A DNA stretch of 33,555 nucleotides from Gemmatimonadota bacterium (GTDB lineage Bacteria > Gemmatimonadota > Gemmatimonadetes > Gemmatimonadales > GWC2-71-9). Location of the stretch: the NCBI GenBank assembly GCA_003221895.1, contig QHUJ01000127.1, positions 1-33,555 of the forward strand, read 5' to 3'. Of the stretch, positions 11,843 through 33,555 are shown piece after piece. The notes beneath the pieces were generated by a model. The model made no database searches. It saw only the letters and a program-made list of their open reading frames with translations, and was not told the DNA's origin. Within the stretch, counting starts at the first letter, position 1; every line of letters starts with the position of its first letter. A program made the translations under genes and the position numbers.

Positions 11843-13572
11843 TAGTGCGTGCGGGTGGCTACTCCCAGCTCGGTGGCGGCCAACAACAGCGCGAGGACGA
11901 GTAGAAATCCGCTGCCTTCGGCCCGTCGGGTGCCGGAGAAGAGTTCAGCGGCGAATCCGGCATCGCTGAGCACTTCGGTGCGATCCCGACCACCCAGTGC
12001 GGTAGCTGCGAGAGCAGCGGGCGCCGGAGTTAGATCGGATTCTCGTGGGTCGGGACCGAACACGGTCGCACCAATCGTGTCTCCTCCGCGCACGCTGAAC
12101 TCCACGCGCGGTGCGCCTTCCGCGGCAGCGACGTCCGCCTCACCGCGGACAATCCGATTCACCAGCGCATCCACGAACGGCACGAATCCCGGCGCCGCCG
12201 GTAAAGCGGTCCAGGTCGTGTCGAGCCGGCTTCCCAGCAGCACGATGTTCCCCGTTCGCACGATCCATGGATCTCCATTGACGGTCGCGAGGACTTGATC
12301 TCCCCCCCCCTCGAGGCGGTATCGTCGCGTCACTTCTACGCCCTCGATAACGGGGATGTTCGGCGCCGCAATGGGCCCCGGCGTTCCCGTCTGACCCCAC
12401 CGCAACGGAACACCGCGCGCCGCGAGCGCTCGATTCGCCTGCCCGACCAGCGCGGGATCTGCGGGAGGCTGTGTAATGGTCTGCACGCCCGACAGCGGTT
12501 CGCCGCCGGTAAAGACGACGTCAGGTCCACTCGTCACACGCTTGCCGTCGCGCAGCACCGCCAGAGCCGCCGCCAGAAACTCCCCCGCTCCCGGGGTCGC
12601 GGTCACTCGCGCCGGTGGTGCGACCCGCCATGCGAACGGCCGGCGGTCGTCGGCGCGCAGCTCGTCAGGCTCGAGCGCGGCTTCGCCCACCCACCAGCCC
12701 GCCGGAAGTGATTGCGCCGGCAACGCGACCGTCACCGCCGAGCCCGGCGTGGCCAACCCGCGCGCGGCGATTTCCGCGCGATCGCGACGGCCAACGCCGA
12801 TTCTGATGGTCACCGGAACCGGTTGCAAGGCCGCATCCGCCGTGCCCGAGAGATCGACCACCGCCGCTCCCTCGGTCACGCGCACGTCTGCGATGCCGCG
12901 GTTGGGGACCGCTCGTCCCGGTTCGAGTGCCAGCACGCGGACGCCGCCCGGCACGTCCGCTCGACCATCCGCCAGCGCCGTGCGTTGCAGGTCGCTCAGC
13001 ACCTGCACCTCGCGTCCCGCAAGCGGCTGCGCATTGACCAGACGCGCGGCGCGCTCGACGGCCTGTACGAGATCCAGCCGCAGCCAGCCGGTCGCGACGC
13101 TGTCCACGCTGGCGAGTAGCGCTTCACGAGTCCCGCCGCGGAGCACTCCATCCGCCAACATCAGCCAGACACGATCGGCAGATGTGGTACGACCGATCGA
13201 GCCGCGCGCGACGACCCGCAAGCGATCGAGCACCAGTCGCCCATCCACGACCGCACCGGAAGACGGGGAGTTATCGAGTATGACGACGATGGCCGTCGGC
13301 TCGTGCGCCCCCCCCCCACCGCCCGACTCCTTCATCCGTACGAGTGGTCGCGCGGCCGCCAGGACGATCACGACGATCAGCGTGGTCCGCAGAATAAGTA
13401 GGAGAAGATGGCGCAGCTTCAGGCGCCGCGCGCTCTCGCGCTCTGCCACCGTCAGATACCGCACCGCGGGAAACTCGAGCTCCGGCGGAACTCGACGCTG
13501 CAGCAGATGGAGCAGCGCCGGAATCGCCGCCGCGGCGAGTCCCAGCAATGCCAGCGGATTGACGAATGTCAC
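11842..13572 (-). CDS. BatA-like membrane protein with degenerate von Willebrand A domain
   Basis: The 576-residue protein begins with the BatA (aerotolerance regulator N-terminal) membrane domain, MTFVNPLALLGLAAAAIP, with LLHLLQRRVPPELEFPAVRYL and a second membrane segment near residues 55-75. A vWA-like region follows with DNSPSS in the MIDAS position, where DxSxS is usual. Extracytoplasmic beta-rich domains and a C-terminal membrane helix complete it. Such proteins pair with MoxR ATPases and DUF58 proteins; the DUF58 partner is next door, but no MoxR ATPase is in the window. I start it at GTG 13572 because this overlaps the DUF58 stop (GTGA); a longer frame to 13659 lies inside that gene. 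It contains two long C runs (9 and 10 bases). Confidence 0.85.
   Translation of the reverse strand: MTFVNPLALLGLAAAAIPALLHLLQRRVPPELEFPAVRYLTVAERESARRLKLRHLLLLILRTTLIVVIVLAAARPLVRMKESGGGGGAHEPTAIVVILDNSPSSGAVVDGRLVLDRLRVVARGSIGRTTSADRVWLMLADGVLRGGTREALLASVDSVATGWLRLDLVQAVERAARLVNAQPLAGREVQVLSDLQRTALADGRADVPGGVRVLALEPGRAVPNRGIADVRVTEGAAVVDLSGTADAALQPVPVTIRIGVGRRDRAEIAARGLATPGSAVTVALPAQSLPAGWWVGEAALEPDELRADDRRPFAWRVAPPARVTATPGAGEFLAAALAVLRDGKRVTSGPDVVFTGGEPLSGVQTITQPPADPALVGQANRALAARGVPLRWGQTGTPGPIAAPNIPVIEGVEVTRRYRLEGGGDQVLATVNGDPWIVRTGNIVLLGSRLDTTWTALPAAPGFVPFVDALVNRIVRGEADVAAAEGAPRVEFSVRGGDTIGATVFGPDPRESDLTPAPAALAATALGGRDRTEVLSDAGFAAELFSGTRRAEGSGFLLVLALLLAATELGVATRTH
12302..12310. repeat. 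C9 homopolymer inside the BatA-like gene
   Basis: Nine consecutive C residues encode part of a Gly-Gly-Gly stretch on the minus strand (LEGGGDQ). Runs of this length are prone to slippage in replication and sequencing. Confidence 0.95.
13308..13317. repeat. C10 homopolymer inside the BatA-like gene
   Basis: Ten consecutive C residues encode the Gly5 stretch in MKESGGGGGAHEP on the minus strand, just after the second membrane segment and before the vWA-like domain. A one-base change would truncate the protein after the membrane anchor. Confidence 0.95.
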
Positions 13573-25216: not shown

Positions 25217-26252
25217 CAGCGCGTTTCATCTGCTGTAGTAGCGATTGCATCGCCTGCTCCGGCGGCAGCCCCACCAGGGCCCGCCGGAGCTTTTGTTTCG
25301 CCTCAACGGTCTTGGCATCGGCGAGCAGCTCTTCGCGTCGCGTGCCGCTCGCCGCGATGTCCACGGCCGGGTAGATGCGCCGGTCCGCCAGATCGCGCGT
25401 CAGTCGCAGCTCCGCGTTACCCGTCCCTTTGAACTCCTCGAAGATGATGTCGTCCATCCGGCTCTCGGTCTCGACGAGCGCCGTCGCGATCACGGTGAGC
25501 GATCCGCCGCTGGGGGGGGGCACCGCGCGCGCCGCGCCGAACAGCGCCTTCGGCTTCGCCAGCGCATTGGCGTCGAGCCCGCCCGACATCGTGCGACCAC
25601 TCCCTCGACCCGTCGTGTTGTGCGAGCGGGCGAGGCGCGTCAGGGAGTCGAGCACGATCACGACGTCACGCTGCAGCTCGACCTGGCGGCGGGCATGATC
25701 GAACACCATCTCCGCCGCGGCGACGTGGCGCTCGTGGGGCAGGTCGAAGCTCGATGCGATCACCTCTCCCCTGCCCCAATCCACCATCTCGGTGACTTCT
25801 TCGGGACGCTCATCGACCAGCAGAATCAGCAGCGACGCCTGCGGGTGGTTTTCCGCGACCGCTTCAGCGATCGCCTGCAGCATCATCGTCTTTCCGGCTT
25901 TGGGCGGTGAGACGATCAGTGCGCGCTGGCCAAACCCAAAGGGACAAATGAGATCGACGACGCGTTGCGTCTCGGCGGTGCGCGGGCTCGACGCGCGCGC
26001 CGTCTCGAGCGTGAGCGGCCGGCTCGGATGGACCGCGCCGAGTGACGCGAAGTCGGGACGGCCGTCGAGCTGGGCGGCGGGCAGTCCGTTGACGGTGGTG
26101 ACCCGGCCGTTCTCGAGCGTGAGGAGATCGCCGCGACGCAAGCCGGGCATCCGGACCGGCGGATCGCCCTTTGCCGGGAGATAGCTGTTCGCCGCGAGGC
26201 GGAGCGCGCCGCCTTTCGGTGAGGGGTCAAACCATCCGGTTATTGCTGGCAT
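25185..26252 (-). CDS. rho: Transcription termination factor Rho, short atypical form
   Basis: Rho is the hexameric RNA helicase that ends transcription. The ATPase core is complete: PPKAGKTMM (P-loop), VDERPEEVTEM, VIVLDSLTRLARSHN, GGLDANAL (Q loop) and FEEFKGTGNAELRLTRDLAD (R loop). The protein is only 355 residues (E. coli 419): the N-terminal helical domain is missing and the cold-shock-like domain is shrunken, with PKGGALRL where GFGFLR is expected. Only 55 bases separate it from divergent lepA, so no hidden N-terminus fits. The ATG has no Shine-Dalgarno. A C9 run encodes Pro-Pro-Pro in an insertion before GGSLTVIATAL. It could be a second, specialised Rho. Confidence 0.9.
   Translation of the reverse strand: MPAITGWFDPSPKGGALRLAANSYLPAKGDPPVRMPGLRRGDLLTLENGRVTTVNGLPAAQLDGRPDFASLGAVHPSRPLTLETARASSPRTAETQRVVDLICPFGFGQRALIVSPPKAGKTMMLQAIAEAVAENHPQASLLILLVDERPEEVTEMVDWGRGEVIASSFDLPHERHVAAAEMVFDHARRQVELQRDVVIVLDSLTRLARSHNTTGRGSGRTMSGGLDANALAKPKALFGAARAVPPPSGGSLTVIATALVETESRMDDIIFEEFKGTGNAELRLTRDLADRRIYPAVDIAASGTRREELLADAKTVEAKQKLRRALVGLPPEQAMQSLLQQMKRAATNAALLNAL
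25512..25520. repeat. G9 homopolymer inside rho
   Basis: Nine G residues on the plus strand encode Pro-Pro-Pro of VPPPSGGS in Rho. Compared with E. coli Rho (VEEGGS) this is a small insertion, so the run occupies a tolerant loop, but a frameshift would remove the R loop. Confidence 0.95.
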
Positions 26253-31201: not shown

Positions 31202-31239
31202 GCATGGTTCCCCTCGCTGTCCGCGCTCAGGACGCTCGC

Positions 31240-32226
31240 GTGCTTGTGATCCAGACCGCCTTCCTGGGCGACGTCGTGTTGACCACTCCGCTCCTCGCCG
31301 CGCTCGCAACGCAACATGGTCCTGTGGATGTCGTCACCACACCGGTCGCGGCACCCCTGCTCGAAACGCATGACGCGGTCAGGCAGGTGATCCCCTACGA
31401 CAAGCGTGGCGCCGATCGCGGTTGGTCAGGCGTACGGAGGCTGGCCGGGCGACTCAGAACCCAGCGGTACGAGCGCGCCTATCTCCCGCACCGCTCGCTC
31501 CGTACGGCCGCGCTGGCATGGCGAGCCCGCATCCCCGCGCGGATCGGGTTTTCCGGTGGATGGTCGTTCCTCTATACGGACGCACGGCCGAAGCCCCGAA
31601 CGGGGCACGAAAGCGATCGACTCCTGGCCCTCGCGGAGGGGCCGCCCGGTGCCTATCCTCCCCACCTGCGGCCAACGGCCGAGGATGAGCAGGCGGCCGC
31701 CGCGCTCCTCGACGGCACCTTTGTGGCGCTCGCGCCGGGGTCCATCTGGGGCAGCAAGCGGTGGCCGTATTACGCGGCGCTGGCGGCCACGCTCGCGAAG
31801 CACGTCGCGATTGCGGTTGTCGGTGGACGTGATGACGTCGAGCTGGGCAACGAGATTGTCGCCGCGGTCGGGCGCTCGGGAGGGCGGGCAGTCAACGCGT
31901 GCGGGCGGTTGACGCTCAGACAATCGGCGGCGTTCATTGGGCGCGCTGTCCTCCTGGTGACGAACGACAGCGCGCCATTACATCTGGCGACCGCGATGCG
32001 CACGCCGATCGTCGCGCTGTTTGGACCGACGGTAACGGAATTCGGATTCGGCCCGGTGCGGCCTGGCGACGTCGCGTTAGGGACTGAAGGATTGCTGTGC
32101 CGGCCGTGTTCGCCCCATGGACCATTGCAGTGCCCGTTGGGACATCATCGCTGCATGCGTGACCTCAGCGTCGAGGCCGTGATCGCAGCAATCGAGGAGA
32201 TCGGTGCGCTACGTCGTCGGAGTTGA
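31240..32226 (+). CDS. Heptosyltransferase / GT9-family glycosyltransferase
   Basis: This enzyme family (WaaF/WaaC, GT9) transfers ADP-heptose to the lipopolysaccharide core at the inner membrane. Visible motifs: the N-terminal LVIQTAFLGDVVLTTPLL with the catalytic Asp, LAPGSIWGSKRWP (donor-binding region), VVGGRDDVELG and TNDSAPLHLATAMRTPIVAL, ending with a Cys-rich segment typical of WaaF (CRPCSPHG...CPLGHHRCM). I prefer GTG 31240 (AGGA 7 bases upstream; family N-termini start here); ATG 31204 would add 12 residues and has no ribosome binding site. Its end overlaps glk by 23 bases. Confidence 0.88.
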   Translation: MLVIQTAFLGDVVLTTPLLAALATQHGPVDVVTTPVAAPLLETHDAVRQVIPYDKRGADRGWSGVRRLAGRLRTQRYERAYLPHRSLRTAALAWRARIPARIGFSGGWSFLYTDARPKPRTGHESDRLLALAEGPPGAYPPHLRPTAEDEQAAAALLDGTFVALAPGSIWGSKRWPYYAALAATLAKHVAIAVVGGRDDVELGNEIVAAVGRSGGRAVNACGRLTLRQSAAFIGRAVLLVTNDSAPLHLATAMRTPIVALFGPTVTEFGFGPVRPGDVALGTEGLLCRPCSPHGPLQCPLGHHRCMRDLSVEAVIAAIEEIGALRRRS

Positions 32227-33199
32227 TGTCGGTGGAACGAACCTGGTCGCCGGAGTCGTCGCCGAGGACGGCTCCGAGATCCACGGTGTCGTCTCCGAAC
32301 CGACCTTGGCCGGGCAGGGCGCGGATCAGGTGATCGCGCGCATCGTCAAGCTTACCAAGGCATCGATCAGGGAATCCGGAAAGAAGGTCGAGGGTGTCGG
32401 GATCGGCTCACCCGGTCCGCTGAACACCAAGACCGGCGTCGTCCTGCTCACCCCCAATCTCGGCTGGACCAACATGCCGCTGCGGGACCGGGTGGGCGAG
32501 GGACTCGGCCTCCCGGCGACGCTCGACAACGACGCCAACTGCGCCATCTACGGCGAATGGTGGCGCGGCGCCGCGCAGGGCGCGAAGTACGTCATCGGGC
32601 TCACGCTGGGGACCGGTATCGGCGGCGGCATCGTCATCGACGGTGAGATCTACCATGGCGTCACCGACGTCGCGGGGGAGTTCGGGCACGTCTCGATCGA
32701 CGCGAACGGCCGGCACTGCAAATGCGGGAACTACGGCTGCATCGAAGCCTACGCGTCCGGCCCGGCGATCGCGACGCGCGCGATCGAAGGCATCGAGTCC
32801 GGCACCGAGACGTCGCTCGGGCAATACGTCAACGGCGATCTCACCAAGATCACCGCACAGATCGTCTATGAGGCCGCGAACGATGGTGACGAATGGGCGC
32901 TCGAGGTCGTGCGCGAAACCGCGTCCCTGCTCGGCGCCGCCGTAGCGAGCTTCCTCAACATCTTCAATCCCGAAGTCGTCGTCATCTGCGGTGGTGTCAC
33001 CCAGGCTGGAGACCGGCTGTTCAATCCCCTCCGCTGGGAAGTGAAGCGACGCGCGTTCAAGCCGGCGTGGGAAGCCTGTCGCATCGTGCCGGGCACCCTT
33101 CCCGGCACCGCCGGTGTGTTTGGCGCCGCCGCCGTCTTCATCCAGAAGCACTGGGGGCTCGGTGGCCGGGGGGGGCAGGGGGGGGAGGGAAAGCGCTGA
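32204..33199 (+). CDS. glk: ROK-family glucokinase
   Basis: This kinase phosphorylates glucose (or a related sugar) with ATP. The 331-residue protein has the N-terminal phosphate loop VGVDVGGTNLVAGVV, catalytic Asp110 in DNDANCA, LTLGTGIGGGIV, and the ROK zinc site: His162 in GEFGHVSID with Cys172, Cys174 and Cys179 in CKCGNYGC. GAGGAGA precedes the GTG at 32204 inside the glycosyltransferase gene. The last 12 residues (GGRGGQGGEGKR) are a low-complexity tail encoded by two G8 runs, beyond the normal end of ROK proteins. The stop codon overlaps the apparent CTG start of the next gene. Confidence 0.94.
   Translation: MRYVVGVDVGGTNLVAGVVAEDGSEIHGVVSEPTLAGQGADQVIARIVKLTKASIRESGKKVEGVGIGSPGPLNTKTGVVLLTPNLGWTNMPLRDRVGEGLGLPATLDNDANCAIYGEWWRGAAQGAKYVIGLTLGTGIGGGIVIDGEIYHGVTDVAGEFGHVSIDANGRHCKCGNYGCIEAYASGPAIATRAIEGIESGTETSLGQYVNGDLTKITAQIVYEAANDGDEWALEVVRETASLLGAAVASFLNIFNPEVVVICGGVTQAGDRLFNPLRWEVKRRAFKPAWEACRIVPGTLPGTAGVFGAAAVFIQKHWGLGGRGGQGGEGKR
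33168..33185. repeat. G8-CA-G8 double homopolymer at the glk 3' end
   Basis: Two runs of eight G (33168-33175 and 33178-33185) are separated by CA, inside the last codons of glk and directly before the ribosome binding site of the next gene. One inserted G, or a -1 ribosomal slip, would bring glk into frame with the downstream kinase. Confidence 0.95.
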
Positions 33200-33555
33200 A
33201 GCGCGTCGGCGTCATCGGGTCGATGGTGTGGGACACGATCTATGGTCGCGATCCCGCGCAGCCGGCGGTCCAGGAGTGGGGCGGCATCTCCTACGCGCTC
33301 TCCGCGCTGGATGCCTCGCTACCGGATGACTGGGAGCTCGTGCCGCTCATCAAAGTGGGCCGCGATCTCGCCACGAAAGCGAATGAATTCATTCGCACGC
33401 TCCACCACGTGCCACCCGTCGCCCGGTTTGTGGAAGTCCCCGAGCCCAACAACCGCGTGACGCTCCGCTATGAATCGGCGGAGCGGCGCTGCGAGCAGAT
33501 GAGCGGCGGCGTCTCCCCCTGGACCTGGCCGGAGCTGGGTCCGCTGATTCGCGAC
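33196..33555 (+). CDS. PfkB/ribokinase-family sugar kinase, N-terminal part, apparent CTG start
   Basis: The frame from 33196 to the window end reads 120 codons without a stop. It begins [L/M]KRVGVIGSMVWDTIYGRDP and continues WGGISYALSALDASLPDDWE, then VPLIKVGRDLATKANEFI. This is the first beta-strand, GG substrate-binding motif and lid region of PfkB-type carbohydrate kinases. No ATG, GTG or TTG precedes the first strand in frame; the codon at the expected position is CTG (33196), overlapping the glk stop as CTGA, with GGAGG 7 bases upstream. ATG at 33223 would delete the first strand. The sugar substrate is unknown and the C-terminal half is outside the window. Confidence 0.8.
   Translation, partial: MKRVGVIGSMVWDTIYGRDPAQPAVQEWGGISYALSALDASLPDDWELVPLIKVGRDLATKANEFIRTLHHVPPVARFVEVPEPNNRVTLRYESAERRCEQMSGGVSPWTWPELGPLIRD

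Follow-up and report, generated by a model that had tools for sequence, protein, structure and literature searches.

A comparison of the glk-kinase junction among relatives gives good support for a rare start codon at an overlapping gene pair. The PfkB-type sugar kinase gene that closes the window appears to begin at a CTG, position 33196, which overlaps the stop codon of the preceding glucokinase-like gene (glk). Very probably this CTG is read by the ordinary initiator tRNA as ribosomes re-initiate after glk, with a Shine-Dalgarno sequence within the glk end and with a G-rich insertion that came later. The window is the whole stretch of 33,555 nucleotides that was analysed, and closes contig C107 in a 3.7 Mb genome (250 contigs, 97% complete, 3% contamination). 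The close named relatives are Gemmatimonadota (Gemmatimonadetes) metagenome assemblies; many of their sample names contain soil-like depths, which suggests soil as the source of the host bacterium and its relatives.

The gene row codes, in order, for a heptosyltransferase-like protein, a ROK glucokinase-like protein, the PfkB-type kinase, a HATPase-domain protein, a 142-aa protein, a Cys/Met-metabolism PLP enzyme and FtsE/FtsX-like ORFs, the last two being named from reading of the sequence. The glycosyltransferase family 9 gene is apparently the upstream member of the same operon as glk. ATGA or GTGA overlaps also occur at several junctions farther downstream in the gene row. The glk product belongs to the ROK family (PF00480) and scores below the cut-off of the TIGR00744 ROK glucokinase subfamily (244.6 vs 260.35 bits). 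The contig end cuts the kinase gene, and the full protein of 307 aa is carried by contig C172, the start of which overlaps the last 824 nt of the window with 98% identity (804/824). A short third contig with the same region, C137, is about 77% identical to the window and looks like a congeneric contaminant.

The PF00294 profile places the C172 kinase in the PfkB/ribokinase family (E 1.8e-14, 54.2 bits vs a gathering score of 25.8), and no NCBIfam equivalog cut-off was reached in the profile search. The AlphaFold model of a congener orthologue (L036) has a mean pLDDT of 92.6, and its top PDB matches are ribokinases with a TM of about 0.7. Family-wide, the kinase neighbours glk; 95 of the 102 genomes of the family have it.

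Table 1. Features of the glk-kinase region (positions in the window).
Feature	Position	Strand	Remarks
Glycosyltransferase family 9 gene, heptosyltransferase II-like	31204..32226	+	PF01075 E 2.5e-30; TIGR02195 155.6 bits vs cut-off 134.6
ROK-family glucokinase-like gene glk	32204..33199	+	GTG start, TGA stop 33197-33199; PF00480 E 2.7e-69
In-frame insertion of 33 nt (11 codons) with G8-CA-G8	33160..33192	+	33-nt gap in BLASTN vs C137; junction table
First G8 run	33168..33175	+	C172 haplotype: GAGGGGGG (G6 after an A)
Second G8 run	33178..33185	+	Equal length in both haplotypes
Putative Shine-Dalgarno core GGAGG	33184..33188	+	Ends 7 nt before CTG; predicted pairing -11.8 kcal/mol
Proposed CTG start codon of kinase	33196..33198	+	Overlaps glk TGA 33197-33199 as CTGA; CTGA in all ten genus sequences
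PfkB/ribokinase-fold sugar kinase, first 120 codons	33196..33555	+	Cut by contig end; PF00294 on C172 copy
First internal in-frame ATG, codon 10	33223..33225	+	Rejected as start

The junction reads G8, CA, G8, then AGGGAAAGCG and the CTG. The preliminary description of this DNA was exact on these points: the kinase frame has no ATG, GTG or TTG where the first strand begins, the CTG overlaps the glk stop (CTGA) 7 bases after GGAGG, two G8 runs stand just upstream, and the kinase frame is -1 relative to glk. The closest canonical in-frame starts in the window are a GTG 129 nt upstream of the CTG and an ATG at +27 downstream. In the window, C172, C137 and the congener G005, the CTG occupies the homologous start position and has no canonical rival close by, as no canonical in-frame start lies between -87 and +27 (exclusive). 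A TTG stands in frame at -12 in five congeners, where it is incidental to a His-Trp codon pair (CAT TGG), and locus L025 has a TTG at -3 and a GTG at -12 in the kinase frame, so that the CTG is not the sole option there.

Among 120 distinct loci the homologous site reads GTGA in 36, CTGA in 11, ATGA in 6 and TTGA in 3. An NTGA stop-start overlap, conserved as in coupled pairs, is therefore found in 56 of the 120, while most of the other loci are from distant relatives with the kinase start a few bases off or another arrangement, and were not analysed singly. These four overlaps support the earlier proposal of rare CTG initiation coupled to glk. CTGA is present in every congener having the kinase gene (ten sequences, 8 other genomes), and in most near genera a canonical start codon occupies the very position of the CTG. 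The eleventh CTGA locus (L030 of genome G023) comes from a different genus in the same family. The gene tree requires two changes to CTG, one at the root of the window's genus (99/85 support) and another in L030. That the site acquired the CTG start two or more times is well backed by the sequences compared. When the conservation of the CTG was set against neutral-like four-fold sites, selection for keeping it was not significant; because 3 of 22 four-fold C sites are equally unchanged in all nine lineages, its persistence is no strong sign of selection.

To judge from the relatives, the G runs are a recent species-level insertion in the glk tail and are not needed for the CTG start, because congeners keep CTGA without the insertion. 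The insertion was found only in two haplotypes of one species, which differ by a G to A change in the first run and are equal in total length, and is absent from all other relatives; eight of the ten CTGA sequences of the genus have no G run of any kind. In the relatives without it, glk ends in HWGLR or similar and the CTGA is kept. The preliminary description had named relatives with an ordinary ATG or GTG and no G runs as counter-evidence to its reading, and on this the relatives are divided: genera other than this one do have GTG without runs, but the congeners have CTG without runs. The Shine-Dalgarno-like sequence of the relatives is the TGGGG of Trp-Gly codons, with a predicted pairing of about -5 to -9 kcal/mol, and the insertion brings this to -11.8 kcal/mol, all of these energies assuming a generic anti-Shine-Dalgarno sequence. 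The insertion would thus have displaced the old TGGGG site and supplied a stronger one, and the earlier suggestion that the G run provides a strong ribosome-binding site is borne out, as a prediction, in this species. A pair of G8 runs as close as this did not occur once when the window was Markov-shuffled 300 times. Individual G/C runs at least 8 long are not rare in the window (5 vs 0.96 expected under the Markov model); further runs are C9 at 12302-12310, C10 at 13308-13317 and G9 at 25512-25520. In the sampled genomes (the host and a congener) such runs reach about 1.7-2 times the Markov expectation, and a lone G run consequently says little.

It is unlikely that the insertion, besides the CTG start, adjusts translation of the kinase by folding into an RNA G-quadruplex. 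ViennaRNA predicts -47.6 kcal/mol with G-quadruplexes vs -22.2 kcal/mol without them, but this prediction is species-specific, the ribosomes translating glk would unfold such a fold, and the CTG start would not be replaced by it.

Three features together argue that the CTG is the start codon: the canonical starts at the homologous position, the conservation of codons 2-9, and a predicted first strand that begins at residue 2. Among congeners the differences in codons 2-9 are mainly at third positions (29, 0, 124) and are synonymous in 115 vs 23 cases, whereas the 12 codons upstream of the CTG in the same frame give (152, 39, 42) and 24 vs 150; these counts are pairwise and thus dependent on one another. 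Codons 2-9 evolve as coding sequence and the upstream 12 do not, which indicates that the coding frame switches at the CTG. As read from the CTG, the kinase N-terminus would be Met-KRVGVIGSMVWDTIYGR. Across 31 full-length relatives, residues K2, L4, G5, V6 and G8 vary little or not at all, and in the L036 model strand 1 comprises residues 2-16. The same evidence makes it very unlikely that translation of the kinase begins at the internal ATG (33223) with the CTG unused. All ten congeneric sequences do carry this ATG as codon 10, and a gene caller confined to ATG, GTG and TTG would pick it or the upstream GTG. A start there, however, would delete the near-invariant KRLGVIG and half of strand 1; the frame is constrained from codon 2, and most near genera start canonically at the CTG position.

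The preliminary description had also offered the G runs as a slip site yielding a glucokinase-PfkB fusion, with run length as a possible tuner or switch of the second kinase. Under this reading, slippage of the right sense, in the DNA or by the RNA polymerase or the ribosome, would join glk and the kinase. The frame arithmetic of the preliminary description holds: one extra G in run 2 fuses the proteins (638 aa), so that a G9 (or G6) gives an open fusion of 638-637 aa with a Gly-rich linker, a -1 ribosomal slip gets to the same kinase frame, and G8 gives separate proteins. The fusion itself was seen neither among the relatives nor in the two haplotypes. No other relative has the runs, and all of them keep the two genes separate; the two haplotypes are equal in total length, run 1 being interrupted by an A in one of them; and the excess of G/C runs in the sampled genomes makes a run by itself weak evidence. 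There is therefore scant reason to credit slippage, and the proposed role of run length as a switch finds no support in the haplotypes or the other relatives. A combined reading for this species is likewise hardly probable, namely that the inserted poly-G tract serves as a contingency locus or slip site and yields a minority of bifunctional glucokinase-PfkB fusion, in addition to a CTG start common to the genus that fixes the kinase ratio through re-initiation. That faulty assembly or sequencing of the G runs hides a canonical start or a fusion is extremely unlikely: homopolymers are error-prone and the window closes a contig in a metagenome-like assembly (3% contamination), but congeners without any run have CTGA, the insertion of 33 nt is a multiple of three, and the second contig (C172) has the same length at this site.

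Under initiation at the CTG, ribosomes ending glk at the overlapping TGA would re-initiate at the CTG through the 4-nt CTGA overlap, assisted by the Shine-Dalgarno sequence within the glk end. The CTG would be decoded by the ordinary initiator tRNA. The initiator tRNA of the genome is ordinary in appearance, with the usual CGGGCTCATAACCCG stem-loop, and the tRNA search found no copy with a CAG anticodon. Against initiation at the CTG stands that CUG is a poor start codon in E. coli (PMC11497404). The initiation, its coupling to glk and the setting of the ratio form one proposal, in which the weak CTG codon may set a modest kinase-to-glucokinase ratio.

A second CTGA start appears to exist in the same genome (L190:18625), where an amidohydrolase gene follows a 3-hydroxyacyl-CoA dehydrogenase gene, both named from reading of the sequence. 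The junction is TTGA in the congeners G008 and G005 and CTGA in G019 and G085, of two other genera. No canonical start is present from -90 to below +60 in the host genome and G019 (below +48 in G085), and the HIH motif of the amidohydrolase, at residues 8-10, leaves no room for a later start. A scan of about 1.1 Mb of two congeners for more CTGA starts gave few candidates, no more than the NTAA/NTAG decoys once filtered, and the amidohydrolase pair alone was backed by relatives. For a possible CTGA start of a secreted-looking protein on contig C172 (L195:15881), the relatives are too divergent to confirm it.

A literature search turned up nothing relevant on Gemmatimonadetes start codons. Annotated bacterial CTG starts are very rare, 20 of about 85,000 as quoted in passages of PMC11983097, and in a survey of close relatives, of 5,080 starts that were ancestrally GUG one had changed to CUG (PMC5622118). 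A genus-wide CTG at an overlapping pair, with GTG, ATG and TTG orthologues, offers a natural series for asking whether coupling relaxes the choice of start codon. A gene caller restricted to ATG, GTG and TTG would misplace the kinase start.

With the Ribokinase/PfkB family sugar kinases the protein has the fold and the GDPTGCGD-type motif in common, at an identity of only about 15-20% to the solved members. The G runs resemble those of poly-G phase-variable genes, for example in Campylobacter (PMC6321876), in standing near a reading-frame boundary; unlike these, the glk run is unconserved and has no length variation between the two haplotypes. A close parallel for the codon itself is the bacterial rep gene of the FIB plasmid, which naturally starts at CTG, works with a good GGAGG site and is often misannotated at a downstream codon, according to passages of PMC11983097. 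For rep, mutation and N-terminal sequencing proved the CTG, while the kinase CTG is supported by sequence comparison; rep is a plasmid gene that those passages do not describe as a stop-start overlap, whereas the kinase CTG overlaps the glk stop. The glk-kinase junction has the stop-start geometry and the operon setting of the 4-nt overlaps at which termination-reinitiation is reported, but those reports name ATGA and GTGA (PMC6728339, PMC10666635), and the start proposed here is CTG.
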